From NCBI GenBank assembly GCA_036169595.1, contig CM069766.1, positions 2,451,001-2,515,000 on the forward strand: a stretch of 64,000 bases of DNA, written 5' to 3'. Made by a program: the position numbers and the translations under genes. This document shows, one piece after another, positions 46,787 to 49,595 of the stretch. Position 1 is the stretch's first letter. The number at the start of each line of letters is the position of its first letter. Below the pieces are notes generated by a model. That model searched no databases, had not been told where the DNA came from, and saw only the letters and a list, made by a program, of their open reading frames with translations. Source of the stretch: Dictyostelium firmibasis. Its lineage: Eukaryota; Evosea; Eumycetozoa; Dictyosteliales; Dictyosteliaceae.

Positions 46787-47170
46787 TTTTTTTATATAAT
46801 TATTTTCTTATTTATTATTTGTTTTTTTTTTTTATAAAATGTTATCAATATTGAAAATTAAGGTGAAAAATAAATAAAAAAATTGATGAGATAATTATTA
46901 TTTTTTTTTTTATTTTTTTTTAAAGAAATAAATTAAATTGAAAATGTGTGTTGTTGTGTATGGTACAGTTTTTAAGTGTGGTATTTATTTTTTATTTTTA
47001 TTTTTTTTTATTTTTTTTTTTGTGTTGTTTTTTTTTTTTTTATTATTTAATTTTCTTTTTTTTTTTTTTTTTATCAAATATTTTTTTTTTAATATACAAT
47101 GAAGTAAAACTTTTTTTTTTTAATGTACAATTTATGACAAGATGAATGAAAAAACTTTTTTTTTCAAATC

Positions 47171-47215
<45 letters not shown>

Positions 47216-47625
47216 ATAAAAATATAAAATGGGTATTTTCGGTTTAAAATACAAAAAAATTATTTGTTTTTTATTTTTATTTTATTTTTTTTTTTTTTTA
47301 ATTGACCCAAAGTAACATTTATTACAACCATTTAATAAAAACTTTAAGCAAAAAAAAAAAAATAGTTAAATAACTATAAAATATACAAATACCATATATA
47401 AATCCAAATTCAATAAATGGAGATAATGTTTGATAAATTCATTTATTGAATTTGAGTTTATTTGAAACTGGGATAATTATAATTATTAGAGTATTTTTCC
47501 ATAAGAAATTCAATCATAGAATATTTGTGTAGTTATAAAGAAAGAAAACTACGAAAATGTTCATTATTCAATTATTATTTGTTTTTTTTTTTATTTAAAA
47601 ATTATATGTTTAAATATTTTTTTTG

Positions 47626-47764
47626 GAGTGTATATCCCCATCATTCAAAATCGGCATTATAGTACCGTTTTGATTGGTAAGTGGAAATACGAGTTTTTTC
47701 TAGTGGATGTTTCCCACGATATTATCAGCAAAATCTATATCGATCAGAATCCACATATCTAGTT
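47626..47764 (-). ncRNA. Candidate box H/ACA snoRNA
   Basis: Read on the minus strand, the locus folds into two hairpins joined by a hinge. Hairpin 1 has a lower stem 47754-47749 with 47708-47703 (GTGGAT/ATCCAC) and an upper stem 47742-47737 with 47722-47717 (CGATAT/ATATCG), leaving a two-sided internal loop of 6 and 8 bases. The hinge has AGAAAA (47701-47696), fitting the H box ANANNA. Hairpin 2 has a lower stem 47690-47683 with 47637-47630 (one mismatch) and an upper stem 47672-47665 with 47654-47646 (one bulge), leaving an internal loop of 10 and 8 bases. ACA lies at 47631-47629, three bases before the inferred 3' end. The internal loops are the size of pseudouridylation pockets. It would guide Psi in rRNA or snRNA; the targets are not identified. 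The exact 5' end is inferred. Confidence 0.62.
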
Positions 47765-47818
47765 ACTTTTTAAAATTAATTCAAACTTTTTTTTAAAGTT
47801 ATTAACTAGACAATAGTC

Positions 47819-47825
47819 TTATGGG
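47819..47825 (-). promoter_or_regulatory. DUSE-like upstream element
   Basis: The minus strand reads ATTCCCATAAG; its CCCATAA core matches the Dictyostelium upstream sequence element found ahead of many small RNA genes. It lies about 57 bp before the inferred 5' end of the H/ACA-like RNA, the usual spacing. Confidence 0.5.
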
Positions 47826-47988
47826 AATCATGCATTTTTTAAAAAAAATTATTTGTTTTTTTTTTTTTTTTTTTTTTTTTCAAATTTTTTTACAATACAA
47901 ATTAATTCAAAATAATAGATCATCTATAATAAAAAAATTTTTTTTTTTTTTTTTTACCCAATGATTTAAAATTGAAGAAACTTAAATA

Positions 47989-47992
<4 letters not shown>

Positions 47993-48050
<58 letters not shown>
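47993..48050. repeat. (TA)29 microsatellite
   Basis: A perfect TA dinucleotide array in the LIM / P5B ATPase intergenic region; fully self-complementary. Confidence 0.97.
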
Positions 48051-48054
<4 letters not shown>

Positions 48055-48192
48055 CATTTTTTTTATATTTTTTTTACATTTTTTAATATTTTTTTGGCAT
48101 TTTTTTATAGTTTTTTTTGCAGTTGGGATAAAAATCTGAAAAAAAAAAAATTATAAAAAAACCGATAAAATTTTATGTTTGTGTCACTTGTT

Positions 48193-48226
<34 letters not shown>

Positions 48227-49595
48227 TCCAAACTCATCAAAAAAAAAAATAAAAAATAAAAAAATAAAAAATAAAAAATAAATATTATTATTACTCACAC
48301 ACACACACACACAAAGTAGTAATACATTTTTTATATATCATTTTTTTTTTTTTTTTTTACATTTCATATTTATATAACATATATATATATATATAATTTT
48401 ATATACCATACTTATTCATATTTTATATATTTTATATACATTAAATTCCATAGAATATTTACAAACAATACAATTTGTGTCGTTTTTAAATTTTTGTCAT
48501 TTTCTTTTTAATATTTTAACATTTAAATTTTTGTTCTGTTTTTTTATTACAACACTCCTGTAATAAATTTTTTTTTTATACAAAGTGGTTGTTGGTGTAT
48601 TAAATCTTTGTTCAGTATATAAATTTGTTTATAAATAATAGTTTTTATTTTATTTTTTTCTTTTTTTATATTTTAAAAAAAAAAGAAAAAAAGAAAAAAA
48701 AAACCACTATTGTGTGCACATTTATCATCATCATTTCCAAAGTAAAATAAAAATATAAGAGAAAAAAAAACAAAAAAAAAATAAAATAAAATAAAATAAA
48801 AATTAAGTTATCACATAAATTTAAGTTATTATCATAAAGGGTTATTGATCTTCAAAAAAAAAAAAAAAAAAAAAAAAGAAAAAGGAAAAAAGAAAAAAGA
48901 AAAGAAAAAATAAAAAAAATAAGAAAGAAATTAGTAATTAAGGTATGTTTTTCTTTATTTTTAACTTTTTTTTTAATTTTTTCTTTTAAAATAATTTTTT
49001 AAATATTTTATTAATAATATTATTGAAAATTTATGATCCGACATTACACTAAAAATACATACATATAAATACAAACAAAAAAACACTCACACACACGCAC
49101 TCACACACACACACACAAAACCCCCTGTCAAAATTTCAAATGACATATGCAACTCGTTTATTCCTACCACAACCTCACACCCTAAACACTTAAATTCCCA
49201 TATACATCCACAATTGTGTGTTTTCTTTTTCAATTAACAAAATTATTTTTTTCATTATTTTCTCCCCCTTTATAATAATTTATTTATTTTTAAATATTAT
49301 TCCAAATTACTCCAATTACAATAATAAATAAAATTAACTCGTCTTGTACTATTCCCCCAATAATAAAAAAAAAAAAAAACAAAATATTAAACACAAAAAA
49401 AAAAAAAAAAAAAAAATTTAACACAAAAAAAAAAAAACAAAATTAAACATAAAAATAATAATATGCTTAAATAATATTTTAACAAAAATTATATTATAAT
49501 ATAAAAGTGAATAGTAGTTAATAGGATTCCTCCAAAATAAATTTTTTTTTTTATAAAAAAAAAAAAATAATACTCAAAATAGATATTGAAAAATA

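Follow-up and report, generated by a model that had tools for sequence, protein, structure and literature searches.

Within the window analysed here (64 kb of Dictyostelium firmibasis DNA), positions 46787-49595 contain no open reading frame of at least 100 amino acids; the genes on either side of this gap encode a LIM-domain protein (minus strand) and a P5-type ATPase (plus strand). A sequence-only reading had described the gap as a protein-free desert and had noted in it two hairpins with stems and internal loops, an AGAAAA H box between them and a trailing ACA, which it took for box H/ACA architecture. The desert is as described, and direct inspection of the sequence together with a rule-based scanner for H/ACA architecture places two hairpins, with AGAAAA between them and ACA after them, at 47754-47629 of the minus strand. 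This stretch is a GC island (35%), with a GC fraction of 0.354 over 47635-47764 against approximately 0.05-0.22 in non-overlapping windows up to 49 kb. A DNA search of the genome for a paralogue returned only the self match.

Architecture and folding of the candidate RNA

The 5′ hairpin (47703-47754, minus strand), recovered by the scanner and by a separate fold, consists of a lower stem GUGGAU/AUCCAC (47754-47749 paired with 47708-47703), a pocket formed by UCUGAU (47748-47743) and UGGGAAAC (47716-47709), and an upper stem CGAUAU/AUAUCG (47742-47737 paired with 47722-47717). A single base separates its lower stem from the H box AGAAAA (47696-47701, minus strand; consensus ANANNA), which lies 15 nt from the top of the hairpin 1 pocket. 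The 3′ hairpin (47632-47690, minus strand), likewise found by both approaches, has a nine-pair lower stem GUAUUUCCA/UGGGGAUAU, wobbles included (47690-47682 paired with 47640-47632), a pocket of CUUACCAAU (9 nt, 47681-47673) and AAUGA (5 nt, 47645-47641), and a long upper stem within 47672-47646. The ACA box (47629-47631, minus strand) directly adjoins this hairpin, 14 nt from its pocket top. Box H/ACA RNAs are recognised by a hairpin-hinge-hairpin-tail order in which both hairpins are interrupted by a two-sided internal loop, an ANANNA H box in the hinge, an ACA approximately 3 nt from the 3′ end and pocket tops 14-16 nt from the respective box. Each of these features is present in the candidate, the distance of ACA from the 3′ end being that of the predicted transcript, so that the earlier assignment to this architecture is borne out. 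The right side of the 3′ pocket is short, at only 5 nt, which counts against an H/ACA reading.

The transcript would span 47626-47766 on the minus strand, with a 3′ end approximately 3 nt past ACA, a 5′ end set by promoter spacing (47766-47759, see below) and a predicted length of ~135-140 nt. An unconstrained fold of this RNA reaches -33.6 kcal/mol (z of -3.26; 1 of 200 shuffles as good). Folded separately, the 3′ hairpin has a z of -3.84, which none of 200 shuffles equals, and the 5′ hairpin, at a z of -2.27 with 6/200 shuffles as good, is by itself only moderately unusual. In the unconstrained energy minimum the first two bases of ACA are paired; forcing the H box and ACA to be unpaired gives -32.4 instead of -33.6 kcal/mol, and the nine-pair 3′ lower stem appears. 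Because this constraint costs only 1.2 kcal/mol, both boxes can be single-stranded cheaply.

Promoter element and predicted 5′ end

Upstream of the hairpins lies the CCCATAA motif that the sequence-only reading had pointed out as part of a DUSE-like promoter. It belongs to the element TCCCATAA (47819-47826, minus strand), which conforms to the DUSE consensus [AT]CCCA[AT]AA given in a published description (PMC3188802), and its first base, 47826, is 72 bp upstream of the first base pair of hairpin 1. In D. discoideum, two papers place DUSE ~60-63 nt from the RNA (PMC3188802, PMC7919456). For a comparison within the same genome, Rfam models yielded 19 spliceosomal snRNA matches (7 U2, 2 U6, 3 U5, 2 U4 and 5 U1), and promoter spacing was examined at 14 of these, with the RNA 5′ end taken as the model places it. 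At 8/14 loci a strict WCCCATAA has its first base 60-67 nt upstream of the 5′ end, and two further loci (one U2, one U1) carry CCATAA only, at 59 and 61 nt. Applied to the candidate DUSE, the 60-67 nt spacing of the snRNA genes would put the 5′ end at 47766-47759, leaving a predicted leader of 5-12 nt ahead of the first pair. The arrangement is thereby that of a DUSE-controlled small RNA gene, its 5′ end being deduced from that same spacing, and the promoter claim gains support from the snRNA genes of the organism itself.

The DUSE word is not enriched, so the weight rests on its position and not on its presence: the window contains 4 occurrences of CCCATAA where 9.1 are expected and 10 of WCCCAWAA where 20.9 are expected, and genome-wide, on both strands, WCCCATAA occurs 1350 times and the reversed word, being commoner, 2121 times.

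Several other features were seen in the course of the promoter comparison. Three U2 variants (L039, L040 and L041) have no DUSE at 60 nt but all carry TCCCAAAA 91-94 nt ahead of the 5′ end and may use a different promoter arrangement. A U6-like copy (30.4 bits, under the family cut-off), situated ~0.8 kb from a U6 gene, also has no DUSE and is perhaps a pseudogene. At the candidate locus, an inverted repeat, TCTAGTTA and TAACTAGA, noticed by eye, lies at 47803-47810 and 47758-47765, between DUSE and the predicted 5′ end.

Predicted targets of the two pockets

By the H/ACA pairing rule, the strict targets of the two pockets are predicted to be GUUUCCCA-UN-AUCAGA and CAUCAUU-UN-AUUGGU. These two exact sites, which the sequence-only reading had proposed, are both absent from the organism's own 17S, 5.8S, U1, U2, U4, U5 and U6 RNAs, its own 26S lying outside the scan. 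The earlier interpretation as a pseudouridine guide is supported in its H/ACA architecture and DUSE spacing and not supported, in the RNAs tested, in its exact target sites. A pairing scan of low power across the same seven RNAs (U2 being represented in sense orientation, here and in the search for exact sites, by L036 and L041; L039 and L040 share the first 30 bases of L041) gave no convincing pairing with either pocket. The Rfam guides SNORA18 and TB8Cs3H1, passed through the same scan, also produced no clear winner; the scan is thus low-powered, and a miss in it says little. A genome-wide search for CATCATTTNATTGGT with at most one mismatch returned 83 matches, one of them exact, compared with 28 for the reversed control, with none on the rDNA contig among the matches listed; the 26S part of that contig is unreadable, and the search is not informative.

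Large-subunit rRNA was represented by eukaryotic sequences in five bacterial-assembly records, presumably contamination, of which four were scanned and the fifth comprises only 83 bases. The best pairing of hairpin 1, with GUUUCCC-[UC]-AGGAU (7+5 pairs, with a single guide base unpaired on the right side and three unpaired on the left), ranks first in 4/4 of the LSU pieces scanned. As a target it is not significant, since 19/200 shuffled guides reach its score, and its conservation in these records arises by construction because they were fetched by this very word. A second hairpin 1 site, AUCAGAAU, with 8 left pairs, occurs in one LSU only (L052). Hairpin 2 pairs best with UUGGUAAG, a stretch that we take to lie near pseudouridines in yeast, forming 8 pairs on one side and weak pairing on the other in a partial LSU (L051; score of -14.4). 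This site was rejected as well: on the control LSU set, which excludes L051, the shuffled-guide median is -13.5, and 170/200 shuffled guides equal hairpin 2.

Among rRNAs and other RNAs, 26S rRNA constitutes the largest target class. It, or some other RNA, is probably what the candidate targets, and not the 17S, 5.8S or snRNAs tested; confidence in any particular target is low. An H/ACA RNA with no modification target, acting as an orphan, processing or scaffold RNA, would agree with the guide interpretation in class and promoter and differ from it in function. The lack of a convincing target in 17S, 5.8S, U1, U2, U4, U5 and U6 speaks in its favour, but with 26S rRNA beyond the reach of a weak scan we consider it unlikely.

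Relation to known small RNAs

No Rfam 15 family reaches its gathering cut-off in the window. Below threshold, 801 bases gave three matches, two of them to H/ACA families: SNORA18 (RF00425) at 19.5 bits (E of 0.97, cut-off 70) and TB8Cs3H1 (RF01550) at 13.5 bits (E of 8.7, cut-off 45), and the candidate is assigned to neither family. The right pocket of hairpin 1 shares GGAAAC with the SNORA18 consensus and GUGGGAAAC with that of TB8Cs3H1, whereas the left pockets of both families are unlike that of the candidate. Through GUGGGAAAC, the sequence CGUGGGAAAC at the right pocket of hairpin 1 (within 47696-47755, minus strand) resembles the trypanosome RNA, a likeness that at such an E-value may reflect either a common target or chance. 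The candidate thus has in common with eukaryotic box H/ACA snoRNAs the two pocketed hairpins, H box, ACA tail and 14-16 nt rule, and differs from them in having no Rfam gathering score and no target found in the RNAs scanned.

According to a 2019 paper (PMC6912284), no H/ACA snoRNA other than sno18 has been identified in D. discoideum. Sno18 is of the same class and genus as the candidate; identity of the two was rejected in a comparison based on primer sequences and not on the whole of sno18, in which the two published primers score 5 and 6, under the shuffled means of 5.9 and 7.6. A 20-base sno18 probe, allowing at most 3 mismatches, has no match anywhere in this genome, and sno18 is therefore unusable as a positive control. 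As counted in a 2022 paper, early cloning yielded 17 C/D and one H/ACA snoRNA, and the box C/D snoRNA genes of D. discoideum are mostly intergenic (PMC8817022). Both these box C/D snoRNAs and the Class I RNAs of that species resemble the candidate as small intergenic RNA genes, the latter also in having DUSE upstream, but the boxes and fold of both differ from those of the candidate. For D. firmibasis itself, the annotation paper lists 23 snoRNAs obtained via Rfam models filtered to Amoebozoa (PMC11193728). A catalogue of dictyostelid H/ACA RNAs was not apparent from the titles and abstract openings among the papers listed, a scope that leaves out much of the subscription literature, including the cloning study of 2004. 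The sequence-only description of the locus as undescribed-looking fits these comparisons, with no Rfam family passing and no match to the sno18 primers.

Structure and promoter weighed against chance

The scanner demands pocket tops 14-16 nt from the box, and the rank of the candidate against shuffled sequence is accordingly the actual test of this spacing. On the minus strand of 47401-48000 the scanner reports exactly one candidate, which ranks first of 81 in the window (score of -43.3; runner-up, -38.7). Structure scores equal to or better than this occur in 2/40 locally dinucleotide-shuffled windows and in 5/140 of a second shuffle set; structure alone is suggestive only and does not stand without DUSE. 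A DUSE (WCCCAWAA) located 55-85 nt upstream of hairpin 1 accompanies just one of the 81 window candidates, namely that at 47754-47629. Across the 140 shuffled windows DUSE is so placed at 98 of 22,430 candidates and at none of the 233 scoring -35 or better. A further 254,479 readable bases from this genome, drawn from 48 loci of which some overlap, contain 428 scanner candidates, none as high-scoring (best, -37.3), and the six DUSE-bearing candidates among these score -26.3 or weaker.

We also considered a DUSE-driven structured non-coding RNA of some other class, its likeness to H/ACA RNAs being accidental. DUSE precedes several classes, including Class I RNAs and snRNAs, as stated in two papers (PMC3188802, PMC7919456), and the structure score by itself is attained by shuffled windows, as given above. 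Such an RNA is nonetheless improbable: the pockets at 15 and 14 nt, the H box and the tail ACA all fall within the frame predicted from DUSE, the predicted length of ~135-140 nt well exceeds the 50-60 stated for RNAs of class I/II (PMC3188802), nor does any other Rfam family reach its threshold. Least probable is a chance fold in a GC-richer, untranscribed intergenic patch, for which the insufficient rarity of the structure score (2/40 and 5/140 shuffles) and the lack of CCCATAA enrichment in the window can be cited, but against which stand the joint absence of a structure at -35 or better with DUSE from all 140 shuffles, an expectation of ~0.08 chance occurrences of this kind in a genome, obtained by roughly multiplying the shuffle rates (5/140 x 98/22430 x 492 windows) and not by a test, and a GC fraction well above that of the non-overlapping windows up to 49 kb.

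The candidate is in our view very likely the gene of a box H/ACA guide RNA that is transcribed independently under DUSE control, and probably a new gene of a well-known class. Transcription would start from DUSE, and the RNA would assemble with dyskerin, Nop10, Gar1 and Nhp2; one or both pockets would then pair with a target RNA, in which dyskerin would isomerise the target uridine to pseudouridine at the pocket top. The same genome has matches to the dyskerin domain (PF08068) and to Nop10 (PF04135).

Eukaryotes generally possess dozens of H/ACA snoRNAs, and the candidate would represent an ordinary kind of gene that is hardly catalogued in social amoebae. When DUSE at 60-72 nt is combined with an H/ACA descriptor, a single strong candidate is left in the 64 kb window, and this simple rule could be applied across dictyostelid genomes in search of missing pseudouridine guides. 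A tentative and somewhat doubtful extension is that stand-alone, DUSE-driven H/ACA RNAs form a large and almost uncharted set in dictyostelids, within which the candidate, unmatched in its own 17S, 5.8S and the spliceosomal RNAs tested, might guide modification of a 26S site specific to the lineage or of an RNA other than rRNA.

Elsewhere in the same gap, a CA-rich and strongly C-skewed island (49065-49194, GC of 0.377) lies upstream of the P5-type ATPase open reading frame. On either strand of 47398-47461, an AT-rich hairpin of ~23 pairs, 17 of them consecutive, somewhat resembles an amoebal microRNA precursor; the fold of 47390-47530 has a z of about -2.0, with 7/200 shuffles per strand as good.
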